Positions 1,780-60,400 of a DNA stretch of 64,000 nt are shown in pieces. Position 1 is the first letter of the stretch. Each line of letters opens with the position of its first letter. The notes under the pieces are model-generated. The model saw only the letters and a list, made by a program, of their open reading frames with translations. It was not told the DNA's origin and ran no database searches. The position numbers were made by a program, and so were the translations under genes. The stretch is from positions 25,443-89,442 of the forward strand of contig JAUNGM010000019.1 in assembly GCA_030524545.1 (NCBI GenBank), given 5' to 3'. Source of the DNA: Eubacteriales bacterium (GTDB taxonomy: Bacteria; Bacillota; Clostridia; Lachnospirales; Lachnospiraceae).

Positions 1780-1933
1780 GAAAAGGGAGGCTTTTTGTTA
1801 AAAAAGAGTGAATATTTTCTCGTTTTACCCATTTCTATTTTCTTTTTTTCTTGAATTTTCCTAATGAACATTAAAATCATAAGCTGAAATGCCGGATTTT
1901 CGGGGGAGGGCATTTTTGCAGAAAGGAGCAGAA

Positions 1934-2629
1934 ATGTTTGCCAGTGTTTTAACAGCGACCATTTTGGGGATTGAGGTATGCCCCATCCAGGTGGAAGCAG
2001 ATGTGAGTGACGGGCTTCCTTCTTTTACTATGGTAGGTTTTCCGTCTGCCCAGGTGAAAGAGGCACAGGATCGGGTAAGGACTGCGCTTCGGAATAATGG
2101 AATCTCTCTTCCGCCCAAAAGAATTACCGTAAATCTTGCCCCGGCAGATATCAAGAAGGAGGGCGCCGGTTTTGACATGCCGGTGGCTGCCGCGCTGCTT
2201 GCGGCAGCCGGCATGATTGATCCGAAGCTTTTACAGGGAGTGATGATGGCAGGGGAGATCAGCCTGAATGGAGAAATCCATTCTATGTCAGGGATTCTGC
2301 CCATGGTGATCAAAGCCAGGGAGGAAGGATGCCGGTTTTGCATGGTTCCTTTCGGGAATCTGAGGGAAGGAAGGCTTGTGAAGGATATTCCGGTGATCGG
2401 TGTGAAAAACCTTACGGAAATGATGGAATATCTGAAACATCCGGAAGCTTTTCAGGATGCTCCGGAGGTGAAGGAAAGGCCGTTGGAGCAGGAAATCGTG
2501 GATTTCGGAGATATCTGCGGTCAGGAGAGCGTGCGCAGGGCGGTGGAAATCGCGGTAAGCGGATTCCATAATATTCTGCTTATCGGCCCTCCGGGTGCGG
2601 GAGCCTGTGTTAAAATAAGACTAAGTTAG
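1934..2629 (+). pseudogene. comM: ComM/YifB-type Mg-chelatase-like AAA ATPase, truncated by element insertion
   Basis: Codons from 1934 to 2602 encode the N-terminal S5/Lon-protease-like domain and the beginning of the AAA domain of ComM (YifB), a helicase-like ATPase that in other bacteria promotes branch migration during natural transformation. The frame reaches GPPGAG, the start of the Walker A motif, and then should continue with Lys-Ser/Thr; instead it runs into foreign DNA and stops after eight unrelated residues. Only about 231 of the usual ~510 residues remain. The start at 1934 follows AAAGGAG (1922-1928); the frame is open further upstream but without a ribosome site. The remaining half should lie beyond the far end of the element. 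Confidence 0.9.
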
Positions 2630-6514: not shown

Positions 6515-6698
6515 GGAAAGGAATTTATTGTAAATGCATTGGATCAGGGACAGACCGTATCCAATGCCATGCATGAAAACTACATATGGAATCCATGATC
6601 GGAGTTTTTATGTATGGCTGCGGTTATGGGAACATGAAGCAGGCTTGTGTAAAGTCTGCTTTTTTTGCGTAAAAAATAAGAAAAGGAGCAAAAACAGA
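6515..6698. promoter_or_regulatory. leader region with hairpin and terminator before the adhesin gene
   Basis: The gene-free 184 bases contain a 9-bp perfect inverted repeat GCATTGGAT/ATCCAATGC (6536-6544, 6559-6567) and then a terminator-like hairpin (listed separately). No clear promoter with both boxes was found between the terminator and the adhesin start, so the adhesin may depend on read-through or on a promoter upstream of the terminator, i.e. attenuation (inference). Confidence 0.4.
6639..6666 (+). terminator. intrinsic terminator ahead of adhesin gene
   Basis: GCAGGCTT/AAGTCTGC stem (6639-6646, 6652-6659; one G-T pair) with a GTGTA loop and a seven-base T tract. It separates the parMR unit from the adhesin gene that starts 33 bases later. 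Confidence 0.75.
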
Positions 6699-21800: not shown

Positions 21801-23318
21801 ATGAAATATAGTTTGGTGAATTTTTGTGAATTTGATAAGTATGCAATAAAGAGTTACTGTGCGATCCATGGCACAGATGAAACGTTGAATCTGGGAGATA
21901 TTACAAAGGTCGATGAGACCACAATTCCCCCATTTAACATGATCTGCGGCGGTTCGCCCTGCCAGGATTTTTCTACCGCCGGCGTTCGTAAAGGGGCCGT
22001 TTGGACCTGTAAGAAATGTGGGCATCAATACAATCCGCTGCAGGTGCATTACAAAAAGCGTGACCGGTGTGAAGTATGCGGTTCCGGCGATATTGACAAA
22101 ACACGTTCTTCCCTGTTGGCAGAGTGGCTGCGGATTATCCGTGGGACAAAACCGACCTTTGGGATTTATGAAAATGTGAAGAATATCGTGGGAAAACAGT
22201 TTAAGGCTACCTTTGACCTGTTTGAAGCAGAGCTTCACGAATATGGATATAATACCTACTGGGCTGTGCTGAACGCAAAACGGTATGGTATTCCGCAAAG
22301 CCGGGAACGGGTTTATCTTATCCTGATCCGCAAAGAGGCTGACAATGGGAAATTCCGTTTCCCGGAGCCATTGGACACGTATGTGTGCATGAATGACATC
22401 CTGGAAGACGAGGTGGACGAGAAATATTATCTGCGTCAGGAGAAAGTAAAAAAACTGATCGAGGATATGGAGGGGCGTAAGGCGCTCCTTTTTGAACCGG
22501 ATGAAGAAGCTTTGAAAAAATGGAGAGGAAACTGTATCCGGAAAGTGGGACAGTTGAATGAACCAGGAGGGTTTGAACAGACCGGGCGTGTTTATTCTAC
22601 GGAAGGATGCTGCCCTGCGCTGATGGCAAATTCAGGCGGTTCCCATCAGCCGAAGATCATTCAGGTTGGAAGAACACACAAAGGGCAATCAGGTGTTGTC
22701 TATTCCCCTATGGGAATCTGCGGCACTGAAACAACGGGCAATACAGCCATGATCGTTGAAAAATCAATGGAAGCCATCCGGGGGAGATACCAGGAGGATG
22801 GAACAAAAAAACAGGAAATAAGCAGGGATTTTTTACAGAGCAGCCATACACTTATTTCTGTTCCAAAGGACAATATTGTTTTAGTACGGCAAAGCTCTAA
22901 GAAGGGCTATGAGGAATGTAAACACATGGGACTTGCAAACCTTTCTTATCCCAAAACATTGAAATGTGGGCGGGTGATGGAACACGGGGATGTAAGCCCG
23001 ACAATCACAACGATTTCCGGGGTATGCCGGTTGGAATCATTGATCAGAATCCGGCGTCTGACACCTTTGGAATCGTTCCGGCTTATGGGGTTTTCTGATG
23101 AGGATTTCCGGAGGGCAAAAGAGGCGGGAGTCAGTGAGAGCCAGTTATACAAACAGGCAGGAAATTCGATTGTCGTGGATGTCCTGTTTTACATTTTTTT
23201 AGAATTGTATCAGGCTATGCCCTACCTGTTTGATGACGTAAGACTGTCATCGTTTTTCAGCGGGATTGGCGCTTTTGAAAAAGCATTGCAGCAGTTGGAA
23301 AAATACGTGAATCAATAG
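21801..23318 (+). CDS. DNA cytosine-5 methyltransferase, circularly permuted
   Basis: A 505-residue C5-methyltransferase that would protect the element's DNA or block restriction in recipients. Motif IV with the catalytic Cys54 (GGSPCQDFS), motif VI ENV (124-126), motif VIII region GIPQSRERVYLI and the motif X-like AGNSIVVDV are in normal order. Motif I, usually the first ~20 residues, is absent at the N terminus and stands at the C terminus instead (FFSGIGAFEKALQQLE, residues 485-500). A zinc-ribbon insert (C70, C73, C90, C93) follows motif IV. The in-frame TGA 12 bases before 21801 shows the missing part is not simply upstream. The start has a poor ribosome site. Confidence 0.85.
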   Translation: MKYSLVNFCEFDKYAIKSYCAIHGTDETLNLGDITKVDETTIPPFNMICGGSPCQDFSTAGVRKGAVWTCKKCGHQYNPLQVHYKKRDRCEVCGSGDIDKTRSSLLAEWLRIIRGTKPTFGIYENVKNIVGKQFKATFDLFEAELHEYGYNTYWAVLNAKRYGIPQSRERVYLILIRKEADNGKFRFPEPLDTYVCMNDILEDEVDEKYYLRQEKVKKLIEDMEGRKALLFEPDEEALKKWRGNCIRKVGQLNEPGGFEQTGRVYSTEGCCPALMANSGGSHQPKIIQVGRTHKGQSGVVYSPMGICGTETTGNTAMIVEKSMEAIRGRYQEDGTKKQEISRDFLQSSHTLISVPKDNIVLVRQSSKKGYEECKHMGLANLSYPKTLKCGRVMEHGDVSPTITTISGVCRLESLIRIRRLTPLESFRLMGFSDEDFRRAKEAGVSESQLYKQAGNSIVVDVLFYIFLELYQAMPYLFDDVRLSSFFSGIGAFEKALQQLEKYVNQ

Positions 23319-23403
23319 AGAGATGAACCGGAATCTTGAAATGTGATGCAGTCCGGTGGGATTCACCTTAATACAATCGGTTGGAGAAGAAAAGAGAGAG
23401 GGA

Positions 23404-23428
23404 AGTAGCTGTTTTAGCTGCTTTTTTT
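23404..23428 (+). terminator. terminator of the accessory operon
   Basis: AGTAGCT/AGCTGCT stem (23404-23410, 23416-23422) with GTTTT loop and seven T. It lies 85 bases after the methyltransferase stop. Confidence 0.75.
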
Positions 23429-23446
23429 ATTTGCATAAAGAGAAAA

Positions 23447-23526
23447 GGCTGGTAACAGGCACCTCCTGTTATCAGCCAGTTACAGGCAGGACAATTCTTT
23501 TTGCGGCATAGGCAAAAAGGGATTGT
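23447..23526. repeat. two long hairpins in the gene-free region 23319-23632
   Basis: Hairpin A: GGCTGGTAACAGG/CCTGTTATCAGCC (23447-23459, 23465-23477), 13 pairs with one wobble, loop CACCT. Hairpin B: ACAATTCTTTTTGC/GCAAAAAGGGATTGT (23491-23504, 23512-23526), about 13 pairs with a small internal loop. Neither ends in a T tract, so they are not ordinary terminators; they sit between a terminator and a promoter. A ribosome site AAAGGAGG followed by ATGATGTGA (two codons) stands at 23531-23550. Confidence 0.6.
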
Positions 23527-23564
23527 ACAGAAAGGAGGCTTATGATGTGACCGTATATGGAATG

Positions 23565-23593
23565 TTGCCCGTATCAAACTTTAAAAGTATAAT
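23565..23593 (+). promoter_or_regulatory. promoter for the 23633 gene
   Basis: TTGCCC (23565-23570), 17-bp spacer, perfect TATAAT (23588-23593); expected start of transcription near 23600, 33 bases before the next gene. Confidence 0.65.
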
Positions 23594-23632
23594 GATTCCG
23601 TAAAGGGATTTTTAGGAAAGGCGGGATTACCA

Positions 23633-24049
23633 ATGAAAAGCGAGGATTTGCAGAAAATGGCATATCTGTATTTGTGCGGCGAAAAGGACAGGGAGCTGCT
23701 TTGGGGGAAAAGGGAAATGAAGTATTACGATTTCCGCAGGCTGTTATTTCTGATTAACCATATCAAGTTTTGGGATTACGGTGCTTCTTTTTGGAACCGG
23801 TTTAGCGGGAAGTTCTTAAAAAACATAAAAGCACTGGAAACGGTCTACGATGAAGAAAGTGAAAGAGGCGTGTTTTACCAGGATATCGAGTTTAGCCTTT
23901 TGGAAGAGGACAACTGGATTGAGGATTTTATCAGGAATGCCCCGGAGGATGTCCAGGAATGGCTCAAAGTGTATGTGAGGAATCTGGACCCGGAACGGGA
24001 AGAGCTGGTGGATATGCTCAAATGTGGAATGGAATTGGAAAATGCCTGA
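23633..24049 (+). CDS. unknown acidic protein
   Basis: A 138-residue soluble protein rich in aromatic and acidic residues (YYDFRRLLFLINHIKFWDY; ends GMELENA). It has its own promoter and is followed directly by the iteron-like boxes, the first of which overlaps its stop codon. A protein encoded next to an origin could act at it, but nothing in the sequence shows DNA binding. Confidence 0.55.
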   Translation: MKSEDLQKMAYLYLCGEKDRELLWGKREMKYYDFRRLLFLINHIKFWDYGASFWNRFSGKFLKNIKALETVYDEESERGVFYQDIEFSLLEEDNWIEDFIRNAPEDVQEWLKVYVRNLDPEREELVDMLKCGMELENA

Positions 24050-24293
24050 TAGCAGAAATGACCGTTTGGCAGCAAGCATGGAAAAACACAGAAGCAAAGT
24101 GATAGCAGGTGTGGAAAACTGATACCAGTTTTTCCATTTCCGGCATGAAAAACTGCTATCGGGAGAAAGAAATTGATAGCAGAATTTTATAACCAGCGGC
24201 AGGAACAGATAGCAGATGCGTGATTTTGCTATCTGTTTTCTATTTATACTAAGCAGGTACTGCTATCATATGTGTGCTACTGCTATCAGTAGC
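24048..24293. repeat. GATAGCAG box array (iteron-like)
   Basis: The octamer GATAGCAG occurs exactly at 24048, 24101, 24175 and 24208, and as its complement CTGCTATC at 24153, 24260 and 24280; near-copies are GATACCAG at 24121 and TTGCTATC at 24226. Nine boxes in 246 bases is far above chance for an 8-mer. Some pairs make hairpins: AGATAGCA/TGCTATCT (24207, 24227) and GCTACTG/CAGTAGC (24276-24293). This is how binding sites for a replication initiator or relaxosome protein are usually arranged. Confidence 0.75.
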
Positions 24294-24304
24294 CTACAGG
24301 GGTT

Positions 24305-24422
24305 TTAGGGGATGCTCCCCTAACAAGATGGATTTTGTACGGCAAAATCCGTATCTTGCAGAGGACTGGCAAGCCAGTCCGGACAGGATTTTCCGTGTCT
24401 GACAGCAGAAAACGGAATCTGC
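24305..24422. other. hairpin cluster, candidate oriT or replication origin
   Basis: Directly after the boxes come four hairpins: TTAGGGGA/TCCCCTAA (24305-24323, 3-base loop); CAAGATGGATTTTG paired with CAAAATCC-GT-ATCTTG (24324-24358, TACGG loop, GT bulge); GGACTGG/CCAGTCC (24363-24380); and GCAGA/TCTGC (24405-24422), with a weaker GATT..CCGT/ACGGAATC pairing across the last. The region 24050-24512 has no gene and is the longest one in the element. Hairpins that end in a short single-stranded stretch are typical of nic regions. It lies 5.9 kb before the relaxase gene. Confidence 0.6.
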
Positions 24423-24512
24423 AGGCAGAGTACCAGGAATCCTGCGGCTTATGTTCCGCGAGCTGTACAGTGAGGACAGAAAGAAATTTAAGGAAGCAAG
24501 GAGGGAAAGACG

Positions 24513-25610
24513 ATAGATGCAAATAAAGAGATAACAAACCATTCTGTAAAATCGGCAGGAACTACACCGATAGCGGCTTTCTACCAGACATGTACCAGTT
24601 ATCTGGAAAGGAAAGTGACCGGCGGATATCGGTTCTGTATTACGCTGACGCATCCCATAGAGGGGAAAAAACCGGAAATCCTTACGATAGTGGAGACCGG
24701 AGAAAGAAAAATGCTGTATTTCCGTCAGGGCATGGGCACCGTATTTTCCATGGAAACGGACAGGGAGCAGCTATGCATGGATGTGTTTGTATACCTGCAG
24801 AATGGTTTTGAGATCCAGTATATGTCAGAGGAATGCTGCGCCCGTCTGTGGGAGGAGATCATGGGAGGATTCACAAAAAAATACCGGGAGCTGCAGGCAG
24901 GGGAGCAGTTGTTTTTAACCTATTGTTCAGACTATGGGTATTCCCTGAAATTCCTGCAGGAAAGTGTAGACGGGCAGGTGCCGGATGCCATGCAGAAATG
25001 GGCAGGAAGGCATGAGATAGGGACCAGGCCGGAAAGCACGCCCCAGATACCGGAATGGATGGGACTGGGAACAGGCTTTACGGATGGGGTATACCCGGAT
25101 GACCTGCCGGAAGCAGAAACAAGGCCGGTGGCAAAGTTTATCCGTGAGTGCCATGTACAGTTGTATGTAAGACGTTGGGAGGAATTTGAATATATTTTCG
25201 TCATGGCAAAGCAGGGGGGAGACGGGAAGGTGGATGTACAGGCGGCCATCAGTGACGGGGAGGAACTTGCATTTTTTAAAAAAGGAAGGCCGCCAGAAAA
25301 CATTCCGCAACAAGGCGTGCCGCTCAGCTTCTTTTTCCTGAGATACCTGAAAGCCGGTTACCATATCGTATATATGTCCGCTGCGGCGCATGGTACGGTA
25401 TGGAAGGAACTGGCAAAGGGGAGGTCGGAATATCTGCGTCCATACGGGGTACAGATACAGGACTATGCAGGATACTGCAGGAAGCATGGGATCACAAAAA
25501 ACCGCCTTTCAAGGAAACTTGGGAAGGAAGTAACCGATTTTATGGGAATGTACAGTCTGGAAGGCGGGAAGAATGAAAGAATGACGATTCCTTTACAGCA
25601 GCCGTGTTAG
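24513..25610 (+). CDS. duplicated-domain ICE protein, apparent ATA start
   Basis: A 365-residue protein (331 from the first standard start, GTG 24615). The frame is open from 24492 and a strong ribosome site AAGGAGGG (24498-24505) is followed after seven bases by ATA (24513), with a natural-looking N terminus after it (DANKEITNHSVKSAGTTPIA). The protein holds two related halves: QLCMDVFVYLQNGFEIQYMS and PLSFFFLRYLKAGYHIVYMS align, each followed by a Trp-Glu-Glu/Lys-Glu-Leu block. The end has GYCRKHGITKNRLSRKLGK. Function unknown; it is the first gene after the origin-like DNA. Confidence 0.6.
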   Translation: MDANKEITNHSVKSAGTTPIAAFYQTCTSYLERKVTGGYRFCITLTHPIEGKKPEILTIVETGERKMLYFRQGMGTVFSMETDREQLCMDVFVYLQNGFEIQYMSEECCARLWEEIMGGFTKKYRELQAGEQLFLTYCSDYGYSLKFLQESVDGQVPDAMQKWAGRHEIGTRPESTPQIPEWMGLGTGFTDGVYPDDLPEAETRPVAKFIRECHVQLYVRRWEEFEYIFVMAKQGGDGKVDVQAAISDGEELAFFKKGRPPENIPQQGVPLSFFFLRYLKAGYHIVYMSAAAHGTVWKELAKGRSEYLRPYGVQIQDYAGYCRKHGITKNRLSRKLGKEVTDFMGMYSLEGGKNERMTIPLQQPC

Positions 25611-25620
25611 TTCGGATGGG

Positions 25621-25680
25621 ATGAAAGCAGGCTATTGCCAGGAGCATGGGATAACGTGTGGTCTGCTGACGGGGAAATGA
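25621..25680 (+). pseudogene. remnant repeating the end of the upstream gene
   Basis: A 19-codon frame whose start AGYCQEHGITCGLLTGK copies AGYCRKHGITKNRLSRKLGK from the preceding gene's C terminus. It is probably the scar of a partial duplication. Its stop overlaps the next small frame (ATGA). Confidence 0.35.
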
Positions 25681-25763
25681 GTATGGATGATTTTATGGAC
25701 AGATGGCCGCAGCAGATAGAAAAAAAGCTGCCGGAGGTATTTGGAAACCCAGGGAGAGGCTGA
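25677..25763 (+). CDS. possible 28-residue peptide
   Basis: A short acidic peptide (MSMDDFMDRWPQQIEKKLPE) whose ATG overlaps the stop of the upstream remnant. It could be translated by coupling, but no independent ribosome site is convincing. Confidence 0.25.
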   Translation: MSMDDFMDRWPQQIEKKLPEVFGNPGRG

Positions 25764-25782
25764 TAAGGAGATGGAAAATACT

Positions 25783-26352
25783 ATGGTTTATGAGCAGGCA
25801 AAGGTAAATGAACTTGCAAAGAAGATCAAAGCATTTATGAGGGAAAACCATATGGTATCCGGTTATTTGGAACGTGTCCAGGGTGACCTGGCAGCAGGTA
25901 TGCCTATCCCGGATATAGAAACAGCGGTAGATAATGGCAGGCTACGGTTCATGTTGGATTGTTACCTGTGCCATATGGTTTCTAAAATGCAGGAATCTGA
26001 ACAGAAAAAGTACGGAAGGAAACTGATAGATGAGCTTGAGAAAATAGAAATTGTCCCAAAGAAAAAGACAGGAACGGGGATGAAACAGGTCGTTTGGGAG
26101 GTTGCAGAGCTGCTAAAAGAACTGGACGGCTTTAAATATGCGGAATATATGGAGGTAGGGGATATGGAGACGGATACTGTGCGCCGCATTTATACAGATC
26201 TGATGGTCCCGGAAAAACGTCTGGCACTGTCCAATTACCTCCAATCCTTTTCCGGTACGGTGCAGGGAGAGAGAATCAGTGAGGTGGTGGCTTTTTTGCA
26301 GGAAGCAGGAAAAGCACGTGAAGCGGAAAAAAACGTAAGAAAAGGCAGATAA
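25783..26352 (+). CDS. unknown helical protein
   Basis: A 189-residue helical, charged protein. ATG at 25783 or ATG at 25771 are possible; the ribosome site AAGGAG ends at 25770 and is too close for the latter. It includes KKKTGTGMKQVVWEVAELL and ends in a basic tail. It lies just ahead of the Ku-ligase pair, with 160 bases between them. No recognised domain. Confidence 0.55.
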   Translation: MVYEQAKVNELAKKIKAFMRENHMVSGYLERVQGDLAAGMPIPDIETAVDNGRLRFMLDCYLCHMVSKMQESEQKKYGRKLIDELEKIEIVPKKKTGTGMKQVVWEVAELLKELDGFKYAEYMEVGDMETDTVRRIYTDLMVPEKRLALSNYLQSFSGTVQGERISEVVAFLQEAGKAREAEKNVRKGR

Positions 26353-26511
26353 TTTCTGTGGATCATGCAATCGCGGCAGTAAAGGGTCCGGTTTGTGCGG
26401 ACAGCATGTTAAAAACACAAAAATAAAGATTGCCAGAAACAATTTTACTCCGCAAAAAGGTGTATTTTTTCACAATCTACAGATACTAACCGAAAAAAAG
26501 AGGTGGCAGGA

Positions 26512-27305
26512 ATGGCAGTAGCACACAAAGGCAGTATCTCTATGTCGCTGGTATTGATCCCGGTAGGGCTTCATAAGACAACCGTGGATAATGATATCCA
26601 CTTTAACCAGCTCGACAAGGAAAGCGGTGCGCGGATAAAATACAAAAAATACTGTTCGCACTGCGGCAGGGAAGTGACCGCCCAGGATATCGTGAAAGGA
26701 TATGAGTATGAGAAGGGAAAATATGTTACCATGACGGAAGAGGAACTGGACCGGTTGAAAACAAATAAGGACCGGACAATCCATATCGTACAGTGTTCTA
26801 AAATGAGCGAGATCAATATGATCTATTACGAAAAGGATTATTATGCAGTACCGGAAAAGGGGCAGAAAAAGCGTTTGAGCTGTTGCGCCAGACGCTGCTT
26901 TCCATGAAAATGGTCGGGATTGCGAAAACTGTCATCGGGCAGACCGAGAAAACGATTGTCCTGTACCCTTTGAAAGACGGGCTGATCGCTAAAACCCTGT
27001 ACTACTATGATGAGATTGCGGAGATTCCCCGGAAGGTCCCCAAAATGCAGCTTGATAAGAAAGAACTGGATATGGCAAAAATGCTCATACAGACGATGGC
27101 AAAACCTTTTGTTGCGGAAGAGTTCCATGATGAGTACCAGGAACGGCTGCGGAACGCGATCATGCAGAAGATCAAGGGAAATGATGTCCTTATGGTTGAG
27201 CAGGGGGCGGCAAATAACGTGATCGACCTCATGGAAGCGTTAAAAGGAAGCCTTGAGCTGATGAACCGGGAAGAACCTGTGAAGCGGGAAGGAAAAATAT
27301 CGTGA
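26512..27305 (+). pseudogene. ku: Ku-like DNA end-binding protein, frameshifted
   Basis: Bacterial Ku binds double-strand ends and recruits ligase in non-homologous end joining. The first part (from MAVAHKGSISMSLVLIPVGL) and the second part (from about 26863, AEKAFELLRQ when read in the right frame, then IGKTV/YPLKDGLIAKTLYYYDEI) are both clear Ku, together about 264 residues as expected. They are in different frames: the run GGGG at 26859-26862 is one G short. Read as it stands, the first frame ends at 26907 after a nonsense tail, and the second has only internal ATG 26883. It could be a true mutation, a phase-variable tract or a sequencing error. It overlaps the ligase start (GTGA). Confidence 0.88.
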
Positions 27306-28237
27306 ACCTGTTTGAAGCAAGGCGTGCGGAGGCGATGCTGATCAAAGAGATGTGTCCTGCATTTGATTCGCCGGATTGGATTTATGAATTAAAACTGGAC
27401 GGGTTCCGGTGCCTTGCCTACCTTTGTAAAGGGGAGACTGACCTGCGTAATAAACGCAATGTAAGGGTTTTGGGGAAGTTTCCGGAACTCCGTAATATTT
27501 GGAACTATGTTTCAGACCGGTGTATCCTGGATGGGGAAGTGGTCGTGATGAAAAATGGCGTACCGGATTTTTATGAATTACAACGCCGGACGCTCTTGAC
27601 AGACCCGTTTAAGATCAGGCTTGCATCGGAACGGTTCCCGGCATCCTTTGTGGCTTATGACTGCTTATACTGCCGGGAAGAGGAGCTGCTTGATATGCCC
27701 CTTATGAAAAGAAAGGAAAAACTGTCTGCTCTATTTTCCAGGGAGACACCCGGTTTTGCTTTTTCAAGATTTATTGAAGAAAAAGGAAAGTCCCTGTACC
27801 GGCTGTGTGAAGAACAGAAACTGGAGGGTGTTGTTGCAAAAAGGAAAAACAGCATTTACCGTATGGGTGCGAGGACAAAGGACTGGGTAAAAATAAAACG
27901 GATGGCAGATGATGATTTTATCATCGCAGGGTATATCCCCAAAGGGGCAAACCACTTTAGCCTGATCCTGGCTAAATACAGGATGGAAACTCTGGTATAT
28001 AAAGGGAGTATAAGCAGCGGTGTAACAAAGGAAACCATCTCCTATCTACTTCCGGCAGAGAATACCGTGCTTTCACTGGTACCTGCGGCGGAAAACCGGG
28101 GAATCATATGGGTAAAGCCGGAAAAGGTGTGCCGGGTGGAATATATGCCAAATACCAAAAATGCCCTCCGTCAGCCGGTATTCCGTGGGTACAGGGATGA
28201 TGTGATGCCGTGGGAAGTAAGGGATGTAACTGAATAA
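27302..28237 (+). CDS. ATP-dependent DNA ligase (LigD-type ligase domain)
   Basis: A 311-residue ligase with only the adenylation and OB domains. Motif I is YELKLDGFR with Lys31 as the AMP acceptor; other signs are ILDGEVVV (motif III region), GVVAKRK (motif IV) and DWVKIKR (motif V). The GTG start at 27302 overlaps the Ku stop, so the two are one translation unit as in bacterial end-joining operons. No polymerase or nuclease domain of LigD is present. Probably seals ends of incoming or excised element DNA (inference). Confidence 0.9.
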   Translation: MNLFEARRAEAMLIKEMCPAFDSPDWIYELKLDGFRCLAYLCKGETDLRNKRNVRVLGKFPELRNIWNYVSDRCILDGEVVVMKNGVPDFYELQRRTLLTDPFKIRLASERFPASFVAYDCLYCREEELLDMPLMKRKEKLSALFSRETPGFAFSRFIEEKGKSLYRLCEEQKLEGVVAKRKNSIYRMGARTKDWVKIKRMADDDFIIAGYIPKGANHFSLILAKYRMETLVYKGSISSGVTKETISYLLPAENTVLSLVPAAENRGIIWVKPEKVCRVEYMPNTKNALRQPVFRGYRDDVMPWEVRDVTE

Positions 28238-28264
28238 ATCGATAACAACCGAAAGGTGGGAATT

Positions 28265-29437
28265 TTGCAGAAATGCCGGGTTCCTGCCTTTTCATTTTGG
28301 GAGGATGACAGATTGAGATATGAAGAGAAAGATTTTGAACAGTTAAAAAAGAAAACGGGGGAATTCCTGGAAAATGGGGCGTTGGGAAACATCCGGCCCT
28401 ATTGGGAGATGCGCTGGCCCTACAGCCAGAAACCGGAAAATTACTTAAATGGGCTTGCAAAAGCTGATGTAAGGAAAGGATTGATCTCTTTCCTGTATAA
28501 CATGTCCCATGGGAGAGGGATGGAAAAGACCAGGGCTGCGGAGCAGATCATCGGGGAACTGTGGGAATATGGCAGGCCGGATAAAGCGCAGGACCGTGAT
28601 ATGCTGCAATCCTTGGTATGGGACACCTGTATGCTGTTAAAAAACACATGCTATTGGGATTGGGAAGAAATGCGGGAGATCGGAGAGTCCGATACGGATA
28701 TTGTCCGTAAGATGTATGGCAAGCTGCGTACTCTGGAAGGCCGGGAACAGCAGTCGGATATCTTTGCCGGATATCTGGAAACATATGATCTTCCTGTAAA
28801 AACACAGGCTGAAATGGAACAACTGGAAACCCGGCTGCTGAATTACCCATCCCCGGACAGGGAGGAAGACCGGTCCATAAAAAACAGTTATCAGTTACGG
28901 GATTGTGTGCAGTGGATTCAGGAATTATCAGCCGCATGGTTTACCCTGCCTTCAAAAGCATACCGGAACCTTAACCGGACGGGAGTATGGAGGGATTATG
29001 TAGTACCCCAAATTCCCAGGTATCAAACGATGTCCTGCTATGAAGTGGTTTCCGATATCATAAGCCATGTAAAGGGGCTTGGGGATGTTTATGGGGAACT
29101 TATGAAAACCATGGGAAGGGAACATATAGAGCCGCAGGAAATACCCAGCCGGTATGACTGGCAGTATTTAAGGGATGCGGAGCCGGCCTGCATAGAAGCG
29201 TTGGCAACCCAAAAGGGGCTATATTTTGGGGAAGCCCTTGGCACATTTTATGAGAGCCGGTTTGCCATGATGCTTGAGCAGGGCAGGGAACGGTATGCTT
29301 GGACACGGGCGGAGGCATTTGCGGAATATCTGGAACATTCAGAACCGGAACTGTTTATGGAATATGAATGCGGCTGCCAGACAAAAATCCAGAATCTGGG
29401 AATAAGAGAAACGGATAACCGCAGAAGTGCGAGGTAG
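28265..29437 (+). CDS. unknown ICE protein
   Basis: A 390-residue soluble protein, mostly helical. TTG at 28265 has AAAGGTGGG four bases upstream; GTG at 28256 lies in that site, so TTG is preferred. The C-terminal ~120 residues hold DAEPACIEALATQKGLYFGE and FMEYECGCQTKIQNLG. Nothing resembles a known catalytic site. Its position between the ligase and the mobilisation genes suggests a relaxosome or processing role, without proof. Confidence 0.55.
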   Translation: MQKCRVPAFSFWEDDRLRYEEKDFEQLKKKTGEFLENGALGNIRPYWEMRWPYSQKPENYLNGLAKADVRKGLISFLYNMSHGRGMEKTRAAEQIIGELWEYGRPDKAQDRDMLQSLVWDTCMLLKNTCYWDWEEMREIGESDTDIVRKMYGKLRTLEGREQQSDIFAGYLETYDLPVKTQAEMEQLETRLLNYPSPDREEDRSIKNSYQLRDCVQWIQELSAAWFTLPSKAYRNLNRTGVWRDYVVPQIPRYQTMSCYEVVSDIISHVKGLGDVYGELMKTMGREHIEPQEIPSRYDWQYLRDAEPACIEALATQKGLYFGEALGTFYESRFAMMLEQGRERYAWTRAEAFAEYLEHSEPELFMEYECGCQTKIQNLGIRETDNRRSAR

Positions 29438-29440
29438 GAA

Positions 29441-29881
29441 ATGAAAGAGCGTTTAGAAAAACCGGAACATTTGACCGCATGGCTTAATGAGGAACGCATC
29501 CCTTTCCAGCTTTCATTAAAAGAGGCTGAAATCATCCTTGGATATTTGGAAGGTTCTGCCTACAGCCTGGAGACAGAGGATGGAATACTCTTTCTTTGTG
29601 ATGATGTGGAGGAAAACAGGGAAGAAACAGAGATTGACGATGTTGTGCAAAAGGTTTGCGAAACCAATTATGAGCTGATCGAGGAAACTGCGGCCAAAAT
29701 AATGGAAGCAGAGATAAGTGCGGACACCAGGCAGGAGGAAGACAGCCTTGCAAGGCTGATGGAAGATGAAAAAGCGCTGGCTTTGGTATTTTTGCAGACC
29801 AGATTCCAGAAAGGGCTGGAGCAGGCATTACGGCAGGCGGCAGAGAAGAAGAAAACGCCTGCTGACAGGGCAAGGCGGTAG
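29441..29881 (+). CDS. unknown acidic protein
   Basis: A 146-residue Glu-rich helical protein (LKEAEIILGYLEGSAYSLET), starting three bases after the preceding stop, with GTAGG as a weak ribosome site. It is acidic in the middle and basic at the end (EKKKTPADRARR). Function unknown. Confidence 0.55.
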   Translation: MKERLEKPEHLTAWLNEERIPFQLSLKEAEIILGYLEGSAYSLETEDGILFLCDDVEENREETEIDDVVQKVCETNYELIEETAAKIMEAEISADTRQEEDSLARLMEDEKALALVFLQTRFQKGLEQALRQAAEKKKTPADRARR

Positions 29882-29910
29882 GAAGGGGTGGTATTACGAA
29901 AAAAGAAACG

Positions 29911-30219
29911 ATGAAATGCAGGAAGGAGATCCGGCTGTCCAGTGAAGAACTGGAAGAATTGCAGAAACAGGCTGCAGAAATGGGGGTAACGGATTCCCAG
30001 TTCCTGCGGATGCTGATCACAAACCGCCCCAGGGATTACCCGGCAATCCGGCAGGAATTGCAGCGGTTAAATAATGAGATCAACCATATAGGGGTAAACA
30101 TCAACCAGATTACCCATAACAACAACAGCCGGCTGTATTCCGAAACGGATAAGCACCGGCTGTATGTGCTTATGAAGCGGTTGAAAGACCTGATGCAGCA
30201 GGTAATTGAGAGATTGTAA
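29911..30219 (+). CDS. mobC: MobC-like relaxosome accessory protein
   Basis: A 102-residue protein with an N-terminal ribbon-helix-helix pattern (EIRLSSEELEELQKQAAEMG) and the typical MobC block NEINHIGVNINQITHNNN. MobC helps the relaxase bind and open oriT. ATG at 29911 has no good ribosome site; an in-frame ATT at 29893 would give six extra residues behind GGAAGG, so the true start is uncertain. The relaxase gene follows after nine bases. Confidence 0.82.
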   Translation: MKCRKEIRLSSEELEELQKQAAEMGVTDSQFLRMLITNRPRDYPAIRQELQRLNNEINHIGVNINQITHNNNSRLYSETDKHRLYVLMKRLKDLMQQVIERL

Positions 30220-30228
30220 GGGGAACAT

Positions 30229-31635
30229 ATGGCAATCAGTAAGGTCCTGCACATGAAGCAGGCAAAATCCGGGTACATGGCGAAACACCTTGCCAACGGC
30301 CTCAAATATATCATGGACCCGGATAAAACAGAAGGCGGAAAGTATGTGAGCGGGAATAACTGCGTCCCGGAAAATGCACTGGAACAGATGCTGGATACGA
30401 AACGCCACTTTGGAAAACTGGATAAAAGGCAGGGGTACCATTTTATCATCTCTTTTGAGGAGGAAGAGGTAACGGAGGATACCGCTTTTGAGCTTATCGG
30501 TAAATTTGTGAAAGAATACCTGGGGCCGGATTTTGAAGCAGTATATGCAATCCATAATGATACGGACCACATCCATGGGCACATTATCTTCAATTCCGTG
30601 AGGTGTACAAACGGTTACAAATATGATTATCCGAAAGGGGAATGGGAATACCGCATACAGCCCCTTGTGAACCGGCTTTGTGAAGAATATGGGCTGTCTA
30701 CACTGGATATGGAGGAAGTACGGGAGAAAAGAAAACGGAAAGACATACCAAAAGGGCAGGAAGCGGAAAAAAGGGTTTCCATGAGGAACCAGCGGATAAA
30801 GAAGGATGTAGACCGGGCAGTGGAGGATGCGGATACCTATGAAGAATTTCTGGAACTTCTAAAATGCATGGGATATGAATTATCAGGGAAGAAGCACCTG
30901 GCAGTCCGGGAGAACGGGGCGGTAAGAAGCAGACGTTTGGATTTACTGGGAGAAGAGTATATGGAAGAAATGCTCCGGTGCAGGATTGAAAAGCCGCCCA
31001 TACCGGCACAGCAGGAAGACCCCAGGGAAACCGGGCTTATTTATATTTTTATCCCTTACAGGAACCGCCATCTGACGCGGCACCAAAAGGAGTGCTTCAT
31101 ACGGAAGTACCGCGCGGGGAAAATCCATACGGACCAGAAACCATGGGAATACCGGAGCAGCCTTCAGACCCTGCGCCGGCTGCAGGAAGAATATATTTTT
31201 TGGGAAAAACATGGCATCCGTTCAAAGGCGGACCTTTACACAGCGGAAGATAAAGCGGCAGGACAGATCAAAGCTGTCCGGGAAAAGAAGAAAGAGCTGG
31301 AAGAAAAAAAGAAATCCTATGATGCAGTATTACACCTTCTGGAAGAACTGGAGCCTTTGGAAATCGAGGCAGACCTTTATAAAGAGGGGTATCCGGAATT
31401 TCTGGAAGAGTACCAGAAGTATGAGGCTGTCTGCAAAAAACTGGAGAAACTGGGGTATTCTCTGGCAGACGCAAGAAAGGCAGAAGCGTATTTCAGGGAA
31501 GGGTTCCGGGAATTGAAGGAGCAGAGGGGGCAGGCAATGCGGGAAAAACGGATTGCGGGCCGTCTGCTTTCTAAAGTCTATCAGAAGGAAAGAGGGAAGG
31601 AGGCGAGGGATGAAATGCAGGAAAGAGGCTTATAA
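30229..31635 (+). CDS. MobA/VirD2-family relaxase
   Basis: A 468-residue relaxase that would nick oriT, bind the 5' end through a tyrosine and lead the strand into the recipient. The metal-binding motif is HNDTDHIHGHIIFN (His109, His114/116/118), and Tyr16 or Tyr28 in the N terminus is the probable nucleophile (HMKQAKSGYMAKHL). The first ~180 residues are the catalytic domain; the rest is helical and highly charged (coiled coil near 340-370, KKKELEEKKK) and probably binds DNA or the coupling protein. Preceded by AGGGGAA. Confidence 0.9.
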   Translation: MAISKVLHMKQAKSGYMAKHLANGLKYIMDPDKTEGGKYVSGNNCVPENALEQMLDTKRHFGKLDKRQGYHFIISFEEEEVTEDTAFELIGKFVKEYLGPDFEAVYAIHNDTDHIHGHIIFNSVRCTNGYKYDYPKGEWEYRIQPLVNRLCEEYGLSTLDMEEVREKRKRKDIPKGQEAEKRVSMRNQRIKKDVDRAVEDADTYEEFLELLKCMGYELSGKKHLAVRENGAVRSRRLDLLGEEYMEEMLRCRIEKPPIPAQQEDPRETGLIYIFIPYRNRHLTRHQKECFIRKYRAGKIHTDQKPWEYRSSLQTLRRLQEEYIFWEKHGIRSKADLYTAEDKAAGQIKAVREKKKELEEKKKSYDAVLHLLEELEPLEIEADLYKEGYPEFLEEYQKYEAVCKKLEKLGYSLADARKAEAYFREGFRELKEQRGQAMREKRIAGRLLSKVYQKERGKEARDEMQERGL

Positions 31636-34395: not shown

Positions 34396-36501
34396 ATGCT
34401 CCTGGCCGGGGGCATTTTTGCGGCTTATGCAGGTTATCTTTTAAATGCGTGTTATAAGCCAGGCATGGATATTAATTATCTGATGGAACGGCTGAATACG
34501 GTCATGGGGAAGCCGTTTGCAAATTATTGGAATGGGACTTCCATAAAGGGGATTGTCGGGGCTGTCTTTGTTTATCTGATCGCAATGCTTATGTACATGA
34601 CGAGCCAGAAAAAATATATGCCGGGGAAAGAATTTGGTACGGCAGTATTTGCAAACCCTGTGCAGGTTTCCAAAAAGTTCGCAGATAAGGATGAAGGGAA
34701 GAACCGGATTCTGTCACAGAACCTACGGATGTCCATGAACACACGGATGACGCGGCTGAATTTGAATTTTTTAGTTATCGGCGGCAGCGGCGCGGGAAAA
34801 ACTTTGTTCATGGTCAAACCGAACCTTATGGCAATGACCTCATCCTTTATCATAACGGACCCAAAAGGAGAGATCGCCAGATGCTGTTCCGGTTTTTTGA
34901 CTGCACATGGATACCGTGTACGGATTTTGAACCTGGTGGAAATGGAACGCTCCAATGGCTATAACCCATTCCGGTATATCCGTTCGGAAACGGATATCGT
35001 AAAACTGATCACGAACCTGATCGCAAATACGACACCGAAAAATTCTTCCAGTAACGACCCGTTTTGGGAAAAGGCAGAGTCCCTCTACCTTCAGGCCATT
35101 TTTCTTTATGTGTGGATGGAATGCCCGCCGAAAGAACGGAATTTCCGCATGGTGCTGAAACTTCTCAACGAAGCAGAAGTACATGCGGACGGCTCCCCGT
35201 CTGACCTGGACCGGAGGTTTCGGCGGCTGGAAAGGAAAAAGGGCAGCTCCCATCCTGCAATCATCCAGTACAATAAAGTCGTGCGCGGTGCGGGCGATAC
35301 CGTAAGGAGTATCATTATCAGTGCCAATGCAAGGCTTGGTATTCTGGAAAATCCGCAGATCCTGCGTGTCCTGGACAGCGATGAGATGGACATTCCGGAG
35401 ATTGGAACCGGCGTAGACGGGGACAAAAACAAGAAAACAGCCCTGTTCTGCGTAATCCCAGATTCTGATAAAAGCTATAACTTCCTTGTGGGTATGCTTT
35501 ATTCCCAGATATTCCAGGAGCTGTATTACCAGGCGGATTTTAACTATAATGGAAGGCTGCCGATCCATGTAACCTTTATGCTGGATGAATTTGCCAACGT
35601 CGCACTACCCGATGATTTCTGTTCCCTTCTGAGTACGATGAGGTCAAGAGAAATTTCCTGTATCATCATCATCCAAAATCTTGCGCAGATCAAGGCACTG
35701 TTTAAAGATACCTGGGAAACAATCCCGGGTAATTGCGACACGCTTATTTATCTTGGAGGCAACGAACAGTCTACGCATAAATATGTCAGTGAGAGCCTCG
35801 GAAAAGGTACGATAGATAAAAGGAGCAGCGGTGAAACAAAGGGCAAAAATGGGAGCAGCTCACGTAATTATGATGTCCTTGGCCGGGAATTGCTGACCCC
35901 GGATGAGACACGGAAACTGAACAATGACCAGTGTATTGTCCTTATCCGAGGATGTGATCCTATCATAGACCGGAAATTCAATACCTTTAAACATCCTTTG
36001 TTTAAGGAAACCGAGGATGGAGGCGCACCGCCTTATATCCATGATGTCAGCATGGCGCAGAGGCAGGAAAATGTAAAATTTTTGAGCGAGGAATCCCTGA
36101 AATACTATGAAAAGAAGAAACAGAACGGGGAACCGGTACACATTCTGGAACTCTCCGCGGATGAATTATTTGCCGCAAATCCAATCCCTGAGAAGATCTT
36201 CACGGACCAGGAACTGGAAGAAAACAGGAAAGAAGCCGGAGAATCTATAAAGGAGGTGAGGAAAAAAAGCCGGAACATCCCTGAGAAAGCAAAGCCGGAA
36301 TCCAATCAGGCGGATGAAGAGGCCCTGTTTAAACTTTTGGCGGCGAATCCATACAGTGATGAGCAGCTAGAGGAGATACGGATAGCCATTGGCAGCGGCA
36401 TTGCCTATAAAGATATCATACGGATCGCGGATATCGGTAATACGGCAGAGCGGATGAAGCAACTCCGTCTGGAATTTACAAAAGATACAGCCAATCCATA
36501 A
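34396..36501 (+). CDS. VirD4/TraG-type coupling ATPase
   Basis: A 701-residue membrane-bound ATPase that hands the relaxase-DNA complex to the channel. Two N-terminal membrane helices (about residues 2-20 and 48-68), Walker A GGSGAGKT (129-136), Walker B FMLDEFANVALP (about 394-405). The last ~50 residues (YSDEQLEEIRIAIGSGIAYK) match the repeat unit of the 31723 protein. ATG 34396 has no ribosome site; the frame is open back to the preceding stop and includes NNKKKTPLW, so translation may begin upstream at a non-ATG codon. Confidence 0.9.
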   Translation: MLLAGGIFAAYAGYLLNACYKPGMDINYLMERLNTVMGKPFANYWNGTSIKGIVGAVFVYLIAMLMYMTSQKKYMPGKEFGTAVFANPVQVSKKFADKDEGKNRILSQNLRMSMNTRMTRLNLNFLVIGGSGAGKTLFMVKPNLMAMTSSFIITDPKGEIARCCSGFLTAHGYRVRILNLVEMERSNGYNPFRYIRSETDIVKLITNLIANTTPKNSSSNDPFWEKAESLYLQAIFLYVWMECPPKERNFRMVLKLLNEAEVHADGSPSDLDRRFRRLERKKGSSHPAIIQYNKVVRGAGDTVRSIIISANARLGILENPQILRVLDSDEMDIPEIGTGVDGDKNKKTALFCVIPDSDKSYNFLVGMLYSQIFQELYYQADFNYNGRLPIHVTFMLDEFANVALPDDFCSLLSTMRSREISCIIIIQNLAQIKALFKDTWETIPGNCDTLIYLGGNEQSTHKYVSESLGKGTIDKRSSGETKGKNGSSSRNYDVLGRELLTPDETRKLNNDQCIVLIRGCDPIIDRKFNTFKHPLFKETEDGGAPPYIHDVSMAQRQENVKFLSEESLKYYEKKKQNGEPVHILELSADELFAANPIPEKIFTDQELEENRKEAGESIKEVRKKSRNIPEKAKPESNQADEEALFKLLAANPYSDEQLEEIRIAIGSGIAYKDIIRIADIGNTAERMKQLRLEFTKDTANP

Positions 36502-40921: not shown

Positions 40922-41077
40922 TAACGTATCAGGGGAAGCCTGAGGGAAAAGGGCAGGCATATCCTGCCGCCCCTTTTGGGGAGGATGGAGAACTTTTGGA
41001 ATCAGTTAGCAATGGCGGACGGTGTTGCTGCGTGTTTTCCAAAGCTCCCCGTCTGCCTGAAAGGAGGAAATAGTACA

Positions 41078-43465
41078 TTGTCAATTTTTTCTGACAGATT
41101 TGAACAATTAAAAAAGGCAGACAAGCCGGTAAAAACACCAAAGTACCTGCAGCAGATCATGGGCTTTACCAGAATTTCAAGGGATGGGATTTTTGAAGTG
41201 GAGAAAGGGAAGTATTCCAAAACTTACCGTTTCCTGGACATCAATTATGTTACTGCAGGTACGGAAGAGCAGGTGCATATTCTGGAAAAATACTGCAAAG
41301 CGGTCAATGCGATTGATATCTGCTTTAAGATTACGATCAACAACCGCAATAAGAATATGCAGGAATTTCGGGAAAATGTACTGTTTAAGCATAAGAACGA
41401 TGGATTTGACTGGATTCGGGATGCGTATAACAGCATCACGGAAAGCCGTATCGTAGAGGGAAAACAGGGAATTGAACAGGAACGTTATCTGACCGCCTGC
41501 GTGGAGAGGAAAAATTATGAGCAGGCAAAAGCCTTCTTTTCAACCTTTGAAGCTACGTTAAAACAGAATTTTGCAGAATTAGGCTCCGTAATAGAGCCGC
41601 TGGATGCCGGGGAGCGCCTCCGTATCCTCTTTAACTTTTACCGGATGGGGGATGAAGAACAGTTCCACTTTGATTTCAGGGAAAGCCTGAAGCGGGGCGG
41701 CGACGTAAAAAATGGAATCTCCGGGGGATACATGAAGTTTTATCCGGGATATTTTGAAACAGACCGCAAGAAATGCCGCGCTATGTTTATCAAAAAATAT
41801 CCGGCGTCACTTCCTGATACTTTCATCAATGAAGTGACAAACCTTCCGGTACACAGTATCACAACGATTGATATTGTGCCGGTGCCGAAAGACCTGACCA
41901 ACCGGATTCTCCAGAAAAAATATCTTGGCATTGAGAATGATATTTTAAAACAGCAGCGGGTACGTAATAAGAACAACGATTTTTCTTCGGATATTTCTTA
42001 TGTGAAAAAGGTACAGAAAGAAAAAATAGAGGGTGTCATGGATGATGTCCGGGAAAATGACCAGAACCTGTTTTATGTCGGCGTAAATCTGGTAATCATG
42101 GCAGATACAAAGGAAGAGCTGGAAAGGATCACGGAAACCCTGCGGAATATGGGAAACGGACGGATGTGCCAGATCGAACCCCATTATTACCAGCAGTTGG
42201 AGGCTTTGAACACGGTACTCCCGGTAGGCGGAAGGCAGGTGTCCACGCTGCGTACCATGCTGACGAGGGATATAGCGGCGTTGCTGCCATTTAATGTGCA
42301 GGAGCTGAATGAAAAGGGAATCTGTTACGGTGTCAACCAGGTATCCCATAACCTCTGCCTTGCCAACCGGAAAAACCTTGCCAACGGAAACGGGATGGTG
42401 TTCGGCATACCCGGAAGCGGAAAATCCTATTTCAGTAAGTCGGAGATGCTTCAGGTATTTTTGGGGACTTCGGACGATATTATCGTGATCGACCCCACTT
42501 TAGAATATTTTGACATTGCTAATGCACTTGGGAATAACGCAGCGATCATCAACTTATCGACTTACACAAAGAACTATATCAACCCTCTGGAAATGGATGT
42601 ATGGTCATTGGATTTAAATGATTCCCAGGGGCATATCCGTGATAAAGGCGAATTTATGCTTGGCCTGTGTGAACAGTGCTATGGGGATAATCTGAACAGC
42701 CGGCATAAGTCCATCATTGACCGTTGTGTACGGAAACTCTATATCGACATTGCAAAGAGCCGGGAAAAGCATATTCCGACCATGAGTGAATTTTATGAGC
42801 TGCTTATGGAGCAGCCGGAGCCGGAGGCGAAAGATATCGCGCTGGCTTTGGAGCTGTTCGTAAACGGCTCTTTAAATATCTTTAACAACCATACAAACGT
42901 GAATGTGCAGGCAAGGTTTGTCGTGTATGGAACCCGTGATTTGGGAAAAGAACTGGGAGCGATCTCTACCCTTGTCATGCTGGAGAATATTAGTGCAAGG
43001 ATTGCGGAAAATGCAAAGATCGGACGTGCGACCTGGCTGTATATTGATGAGTTTCATACCGTCCTTGACAAAGAGTACAGTGCGAAGTATCTGTATACCC
43101 TTTGGAAAAAGGTAAGGAAGCTTGGCGGCCTGTGCACCGGGATTACGCAGAATATCGTTGACATGCTTCAAAATTATACGGCGGTCACAATGCTTGGAAA
43201 CAGTGAGTTTATCGCATTGCTGAAGCAGGCAAACGTAGACAGCCAGGAGCTTTCCAGGGTAGCAGGAATCCCGGAAGCGCAGCTTAAATTTGTAAATAAC
43301 TCCCCGTCCGGTACCGGTATCATCAAGCACGGGAATGTATGTATCCCATTTGATAACAGGATGAGCAAGGAAGAAAACCCGATCTACGCGCTGTTCAACA
43401 CCAATATGCATGAAAAAGCAAAACAGGAGAGGGAATCGCTGCCTGACTTGCCGCAAGCATTTTGA
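41078..43465 (+). CDS. VirB4-type conjugation ATPase
   Basis: A 795-residue ATPase that powers the transfer channel from the cytoplasmic side. Walker A is FGIPGSGKS (about residues 442-450), Walker B LYIDEFHTVL (about 653-662), with the conserved IVIDPTLEY and ITQNI. The N-terminal ~400 residues are the usual VirB4 domain without membrane helices. TTG at 41078 is seven bases after AAGGAGG (41061-41067); the frame is open to 40976 but no ribosome site supports a longer protein. Confidence 0.93.
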   Translation: MSIFSDRFEQLKKADKPVKTPKYLQQIMGFTRISRDGIFEVEKGKYSKTYRFLDINYVTAGTEEQVHILEKYCKAVNAIDICFKITINNRNKNMQEFRENVLFKHKNDGFDWIRDAYNSITESRIVEGKQGIEQERYLTACVERKNYEQAKAFFSTFEATLKQNFAELGSVIEPLDAGERLRILFNFYRMGDEEQFHFDFRESLKRGGDVKNGISGGYMKFYPGYFETDRKKCRAMFIKKYPASLPDTFINEVTNLPVHSITTIDIVPVPKDLTNRILQKKYLGIENDILKQQRVRNKNNDFSSDISYVKKVQKEKIEGVMDDVRENDQNLFYVGVNLVIMADTKEELERITETLRNMGNGRMCQIEPHYYQQLEALNTVLPVGGRQVSTLRTMLTRDIAALLPFNVQELNEKGICYGVNQVSHNLCLANRKNLANGNGMVFGIPGSGKSYFSKSEMLQVFLGTSDDIIVIDPTLEYFDIANALGNNAAIINLSTYTKNYINPLEMDVWSLDLNDSQGHIRDKGEFMLGLCEQCYGDNLNSRHKSIIDRCVRKLYIDIAKSREKHIPTMSEFYELLMEQPEPEAKDIALALELFVNGSLNIFNNHTNVNVQARFVVYGTRDLGKELGAISTLVMLENISARIAENAKIGRATWLYIDEFHTVLDKEYSAKYLYTLWKKVRKLGGLCTGITQNIVDMLQNYTAVTMLGNSEFIALLKQANVDSQELSRVAGIPEAQLKFVNNSPSGTGIIKHGNVCIPFDNRMSKEENPIYALFNTNMHEKAKQERESLPDLPQAF

Positions 43466-57894: not shown

Positions 57895-58481
57895 GTGCGC
57901 CCGTAAGGGGCTGTAATAATCTTACCTTGAGCAAGTAATAGGGCAAGGTATCAAAGCGGGATAATCCGCACCCTATCGTCACCCGACTTATCCAAAAAGG
58001 GAAACCTGACGGGGAGTGTAGCATGTCGGAGGGCACGAAACACGGAAACTTCCAAAGTGTTTGCGTGGTAGTGGCGAAAAGTTATGAATAAGGAAGAAAG
58101 CTAAACTGCCTGAATGACAGCCGGAGATTGGGCAAAATGTTGCTCCATGCGTAAGGAAGTTATACCCGCATGTACTCTGGTGGATATGAGTCTGCCATGC
58201 GTATTCACAAGATACCCAGAGTAAATCAGCCATAGGATAATGGAAAACGGCGAACGTCACATCCGAAATCATAACAGGCTTATGTTATTACAGTTCTAAA
58301 CGGGGATTGCCTAAGGTAAAATGCCGAAAAACGGCTATGAGTGCTATGAGAAAAGTGACTCTGAATATTTACTATGGCAACAGAGTCTCCGTAGTAGTCC
58401 GAGGACGGGAAAGCTGTCCACATGGCGAAGGGAGACAGTCTTTCTTCAATACAAACAATAAGGAAAGGTGCGTGAGGCATT

Positions 58482-60296: not shown

Positions 60297-60304
60297 AAGA
60301 TGGC

Positions 60305-60338
60305 GAGCCGTGTACATCGAGAGGTGTAAGCACGGTTC
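60305..60338 (+). ncRNA. group II intron domain V
   Basis: 34 nt that fold as GAGCCGTG/CACGGTTC outside and TACATC/GGTGTA inside, with a GAGA tetraloop and an AG bulge. The AGC triad near the 5' side is the catalytic metal-binding site. Domain VI with its branch-point adenosine follows to about 60395. Confidence 0.88.
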
Positions 60339-60400
60339 TGGAGGGGGTTACGCCAAGACCGCTGATGAAAGGAAGTATGGCGTGGCGTTTCCTACCTTAT

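Follow-up and report, generated by a model that had tools for sequence, protein, structure and literature searches.

A polymerase-less Ku-ligase pair, probably acquired by its carrier ICE and probably inactive there, in a Lachnospiraceae bacterium

Ku-ligase pairs carry out template-free joining of broken DNA ends. How did such a pair come to lie on an ICE, and whom does it serve? We addressed these questions for a window of 64,000 nucleotides (the whole stretch of DNA analysed, G000:C10:25443-89442) from the 4.34 Mb genome, in 76 contigs, of a Eubacteriales bacterium of the Lachnospiraceae (G000). Our analysis led to a reading that we consider likely: a horizontally moving cassette of Ku and a ligase-only protein, polymerase-less and serving host cells, was acquired by the ICE and is probably inactive in this copy. 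The features needed for the argument are as follows.

1889..2629, + strand, 5' part of comM, cut by the element (PF01078 positions 1-36)
25741..26352, + strand, left neighbour of the pair and insertion border, family unknown, paralogue of gene 28256
26503..26907, + strand, N-terminal part of Ku with an early stop (PF02735 positions 2-114, E 2.2e-29)
26883..27305, + strand, C-terminal part of Ku in another phase (PF02735 positions 124-190, E 4.4e-07)
27302..28237, + strand, ligase-only LigD-type ATP-dependent DNA ligase, 311 aa (PF01068, 1.5e-30; PF04679, 2.5e-10)
28256..29437, + strand, right neighbour and other insertion border, paralogue of gene 25741
29911..30219, + strand, MobC/NikA-like mobilisation protein (PF21983, PF05713)
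30229..31635, + strand, MobA/VirD2-type relaxase, MOBP-type (PF03432, E 2.6e-35)
34396..36501, + strand, coupling protein of VirD4/TraG type (PF02534, E 2.2e-59)
40976..43465, + strand, VirB4-like ATPase (PF19044, E 6e-10)

The ligase frame is open and begins with GTG. Its best NCBIfam match was TIGR02779, the NHEJ ligase family (E 3.3e-62; 210.4 bits, under the curated cut-off of 227.75), and its residues 21-306 aligned with 1vs0, the mycobacterial LigD ligase domain (E 4e-23). K-x-D-G, LDGE, DCLY, EGVVAKR and WVK-x-K, which we take to be the catalytic motifs, were all retained in this alignment, as expected for a LigD-type ATP-dependent ligase, and Pfam detected no polymerase or phosphoesterase domain in the protein. 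Genome-wide profile searches of G000 found no further Ku and no further PF01068 match, and the LigD polymerase domain (TIGR02778) was not detected in this genome, which thus combines Ku and a LIG-only protein in the absence of that domain. TIGR02778 was found in 4 of 26 genomes, over the cut-off in G087, G333 and G407, all with a full LigD, and weakly in G194; it occurred in none of the 21 genomes, G000 included, that had a stand-alone ligase without full LigD. The GTGA overlap of the Ku stop and the ligase start, reported in the initial annotation, was found at 27302-27305. The Ku stop lay within 4 bases of the ligase start in 27 of 28 measured loci (the exception being L072, +64); GTGA-like coupling is thus a trait of the family. 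PADLOC gave no defence match for the first half of Ku, the ligase or the flanking paralogues.

Both families of the annotated pair were present where it had placed them; however, Ku is split over two phases, and the pair therefore consists of one broken and one intact gene. The first part, which probably begins with the ATG at 26512, covered positions 3-118 of the 259 in TIGR02772 (score 143.5, below the cut-off of 150). For the second part, 26883 is simply the first start codon listed, with no start claimed there; a genome-wide profile search assigned this part to profile positions 113-190. At the junction the window sequence was one base shorter than that of six intact relatives, two of them near-identical, all of which were single-frame there. 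An intact Ku-family protein is thus missing from the window copy and present in L009, L010 and others. The Ku of L009 matched solved Ku structures (9vnq, E 2e-42), and the junction falls at about residue 116-120 in this 264-residue protein, so that each window part would be without a piece of the ring. No second copy of the window Ku was found in viral contigs, searched with an exact stretch of 30 bases. Compared with L009, dN/dS was 0.015/1.97 for the first half of Ku, 0.10/2.19 for the second half and 0.20/2.26 for the ligase; dS is near saturation, and hence only the direction, dN below dS, is informative. This low dN suggests that the break is either recent or an artefact. Unless the break is an assembly error, the split Ku is probably inactive here; the cassette as a whole has probably lost its activity or supplies no more than a free ligase.

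The identification of the carrier as an ICE was borne out. It encodes a relaxase, a coupling protein and a VirB4-like ATPase, as well as an NlpC/P60 enzyme near the pair and the transfer genes, and it is integrated into a chromosomal gene, comM, which it interrupts. The 5' part of comM ends at about position 2600 of the window, and the rest of the gene opens another contig (G000:C20:1-569; PF01078 positions 33-205); the contig of the window stops inside the element, one end of which lies beyond C10. Among the 30 window proteins scanned with Pfam, none was identified as an integrase. The comM junctions showed no direct repeat of 10 or more bases; short inverted ends of 8 bases were spotted there by eye, and this combination may hint at an unusual integration enzyme. 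Within 52105-62122 the element also contains a group II intron, with its own reverse transcriptase at 58482-60400, that interrupts a gene for a very large helicase/methylase; in a sister element this gene is a single frame of 2500 aa. At 6534-12830 the element encodes a surface protein of 2098 aa that includes 13 stretches of SpaA domain.

This sister element, G409:C16, bears on the origin of the pair. It is syntenic with most of the window (identity of 67% for the relaxase, 83% for the coupling protein and 90% for the VirB4-like ATPase), but there genes 25741 and 28256 have homologues that adjoin, separated by a gap of about 60 bp, with neither Ku nor ligase. We examined 11 related elements in 14 loci (G409, G109, G015, G173, G362 twice, G330, G407, G190, G239 and G290), ten of which were chosen by relaxase similarity and one, that of G015, by gene 28256. 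Neither Ku nor ligase was found in any of the 11 within the stretches fetched, which cover the elements in part. G362 and G190 do contain the pair, on contigs other than that of the related element. Taken together, the empty site in G409 and the count of 0/11 indicate that the pair is acquired cargo. At the DNA level, the window resembles the nearest contig with a pair in a single block only (26500-28218, 75% identical), implying that the unit moved consisted of the two genes and little else. We favour a gain of the pair by the ICE between two of its own paralogous genes; a loss from the sisters is less favoured given 0/11.

The paralogy of the two border genes is based on a match of gene 28256 to the site of gene 25741 (E 1.2e-4, 27%); gene 28256 also had a DUF3791 match slightly below its cut-off. 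Members of this family were observed in tandem near mobilisation genes, with three consecutive matches in G015:C28:43875-47827. The pair had been described as lying between an origin-like region and the mobilisation genes. The MobC/NikA and relaxase genes are indeed downstream, with two genes (28256 and 29441) between the ligase and the MobC/NikA gene; the origin-like region was not recovered. In a search for repeats of 14 nt or more spaced within 400 nt, the region 23300-26520 had a single imperfect direct pair of 29 nt (at 25467 and 25627, 79% alike) and no inverted repeats, and 29400-30240 had no repeats, so that origin-like repeats adjoining the pair were rejected. GC skew did not change sign over 24500-31399. 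No promoter-like sites were found in 26353-26502, and the region had 4, fewer than the mean of 6.7 in shuffles. SOS control was also considered and rejected as a general trait: a perfect LexA-type box preceded Ku in only 2 of 32 loci, the near-identical L009 and L010 (about 88 bases 5' of Ku), and was found nowhere in the window.

Distribution of the two genes was patchy. Within the genus, 4 of 64 genomes had the ligase, G000 among them; of the other three, G002 had two copies, the G008 copy was cut by a contig end and G029 had a fragment. In the family it occurred in 28 of 397 genomes, G000 included, and matches were either stand-alone proteins of about 310 aa (45-61% identical) or LigD-type frames of 682-840 aa (30-33%). 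Such long LigD-type proteins were present in 8 of 397 family genomes, besides a few short fragments. Ku was found in 30 of the 397, including all 28 with the ligase; the other two, G194 and G363, had no ligase match. Judged by eye, Ku and ligase trees had the same main groups. In both trees the window, represented in the Ku tree by its N-terminal part only, grouped with L009/L010 with full bootstrap support. A clade of the window and the two G002 copies, a grouping that follows taxonomy but was chosen after inspection of the tree, was rejected (p-AU 0.0001). Together with the occurrence in 4/64 genus genomes, this rejection implies that the window copy is not the inherited copy of the genus. 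The initial annotation had named as the case against it that Ku-ligase is chromosomal in relatives and present here by chance; many relatives do lie in places without a mobile hallmark, but the window copy was not inherited within the genus.

Ligase queries identified 45 places, which we classified by our own reading. Three of four Ku queries contributed to this classification, that of L009 having been translated in a wrong frame, and the Ku of L009 and L010 was judged from separate comparisons. Both genes were full and stop-free in 26, nine were remnants and two were cut by a contig end. In four places Ku was broken and the ligase full (the window, L012, L061 and L062, the last two being one element), and in four others (L014, L015, L025 and L074) a full ligase had no Ku found beside it; the reverse was seen in none. 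Selection of ORFs among the loci hid some genes (L013, L072). Metaclostridioides mangenotii had three ligase-family places (L014, L019 and L021), with no adjoining Ku found and two of them decayed.

The surroundings of these pairs were diverse. The nearest pairs, L009 and L010, are 97% alike over 7.5 kb, and the L010 contig (21.5 kb) had no match to the transfer genes of the window. A second, different ICE carries the pair in G091 and G267, which belong to two genera (L061, G091:C15; L062, G267:C57). The two copies are 99-100% identical over 11 kb, which could reflect recent transfer or contamination of one assembly. This ICE has a VirB4-like ATPase and, about 21 kb from the pair, a coupling protein 31% identical to that of the window; both assemblies have one in-frame TAG in Ku and an open ligase. 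On plasmid CP141730.1 (L055) the pair is intact, and a MobP3 relaxase and a coupling protein are encoded nearby (the PLSDB type being non-mobilizable). A SIR2-family gene, weakly ThsA-like (defence), was observed directly 3' of this pair, followed by DNA polymerase IV (L055:19195-25082). Viral record L024 has a full pair together with an endolysin and a reverse transcriptase. Weak terminase-like matches lay about 21-22 kb from the ligases without detected Ku in L014 and L025 (the distance in L014 assumes the contig numbering of its genome), phage tail genes some 22 kb from the pair of G383, and a weak coupling-protein-like match about 22 kb from that of G415.

Six loci (L011, L012, L013, L017, L020 and L022) share a common syntenic place, which adjoins an NAD-type ligase gene, named from its sequence; the pair is intact in some of them and decayed in others. 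Genes for a Y-family polymerase and for an SRAP peptidase were noted near the L011 pair (L011:12240-14534), and in 5 loci (cluster 7) related polymerase genes lay close to the pair. A recurrent neighbourhood was rejected, with no dominant partner in 145 neighbouring ORFs (from 166 candidates): top Pfam counts were 4 (AAA_21, HTH_3) and 3 (e.g., IMS polymerases), and endolysin families had 2-3 members each. On the ligase tree, our labels give at least 7 switches of mobile context, with unlabelled places scored as non-mobile without proof; a place outside mobile elements means here one with no hallmark within the stretch fetched, nothing more.

These data suggest a cassette that would spread by horizontal transfer through Lachnospiraceae-like genomes and the mobile elements in them. 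Where both genes are intact, broken DNA ends would be clamped and paired by Ku and sealed by the ligase translated with it. The host cell would thereby gain template-free repair which, with no LigD polymerase present, is presumably limited to ends that need little processing. We infer this biochemical activity from the protein families, and a benefit to the host cell, rather than to the element, from related elements without the pair and from the many copies without a mobile hallmark. Because Ku is split in G000, even the host benefit is doubtful in the source genome.

Other explanations give the window copy, or its ligase, a function. It is rather unlikely, in our view, that the break in Ku reflects an assembly error, or that -1 ribosomal slippage bypasses it at a low level; in either case the pair would be a working two-protein NHEJ system. 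The two Ku halves seem equally constrained and contain no further stop, and the codons AAA AAG are adjacent at the junction; however, all six aligned relatives are single-frame, so that a conserved shift site is absent, and AAA AAG is, as we understand it, not a full classical slippage heptamer. The proposal of the initial annotation that the pair serves the element, closing or protecting ICE DNA after entry or capturing foreign DNA at breaks, appears most unlikely. The position upstream of mobilisation genes and the related pairs on different ICE, plasmid and phage records fit this role, but the pair was absent from all 11 related elements in the stretches fetched, the nearest pairs lie outside this element, many relatives occupy places without a mobile hallmark, and Ku is out of frame here and broken in both ICE types found.

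We also consider it improbable that mobile elements retain only the ligase for use, Ku being dispensable or harmful. The four of 45 places with broken Ku and a full ligase and the four with a ligase and no Ku, against none of the reverse, agree with this idea. However, sampling with a ligase query under-represents the reverse, and the Ku search did reveal G194 and G363 without a ligase match; in addition, L012 belongs to a clade in which both genes decay, and plasmid L055 and phage record L024 retain both. A broader version, to which we give little credence, is that mobile elements of gut Clostridia repeatedly gain Ku-ligase, and that their conjugative and phage carriers are prone to inactivate or lose Ku while retaining the ligase, either because a DNA-end clamp would harm the life cycle of the carrier or because the ligase alone would serve it. 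If true, Ku loss would signal that a gene for host repair had become a gene of the element. A host-serving cassette, acquired by the ICE and probably inactive in it, thus remains our preferred reading.

The significance of this locus is that one site shows an acquisition, that a sister element with the site empty is available for comparison, and that the moved unit comprises only two coupled genes. Conjugative elements offer a concrete route for the spread of end joining, and the family supplies natural polymerase-less pairs for probing the minimal bacterial end-joining machine. Work on Sinorhizobium reportedly ties NHEJ to horizontal transfer. Related ligases occurred in 1407 plasmid records and 47 phage records; among the best 30 of the 1407 plasmid records, the top match was 41.7% identical and the other 29 were at 33.3% or less. 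Among the literature matches listed, in which subscription journals are largely outside the scope, there was no report of NHEJ genes on an ICE.

Several features of this system have precedents. According to PMC7719229, NHEJ is scattered across bacteria with many inferred gains, a composition-based scan identified no horizontally acquired chromosomal NHEJ, and NHEJ components are on plasmids in 60 genomes; the initial description of end joining as normally a chromosomal or phage trait was, on this account, too narrow. Other articles report Ku homologues in 11 phages (PMC8136500), and a role of the ligase-only proteins LigC and LigD in repair in Streptomyces is implicated in PMC5124664, which also mentions NHEJ genes in plasmids. 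The closest counterpart is the nonconventional NHEJ class that, in PMC7719229, includes Ku with LIG only: Ku, the ligase domain and a genome without a LigD polymerase domain are shared, and the window differs in being ICE-borne and in its out-of-frame Ku. Full LigD with Ku, as in Bacillus subtilis and 8/397 family genomes, involves the same Ku and ligase families, whereas the window ligase has no polymerase domain and shares about 26-33% identity with the LigD-type ligases matched. With plasmid and phage NHEJ genes the common point is end joining as mobile cargo, the carrier in this case being an ICE. The kind of system is therefore already known, and this member, its ICE carrier and the empty-site comparison appear to be new.
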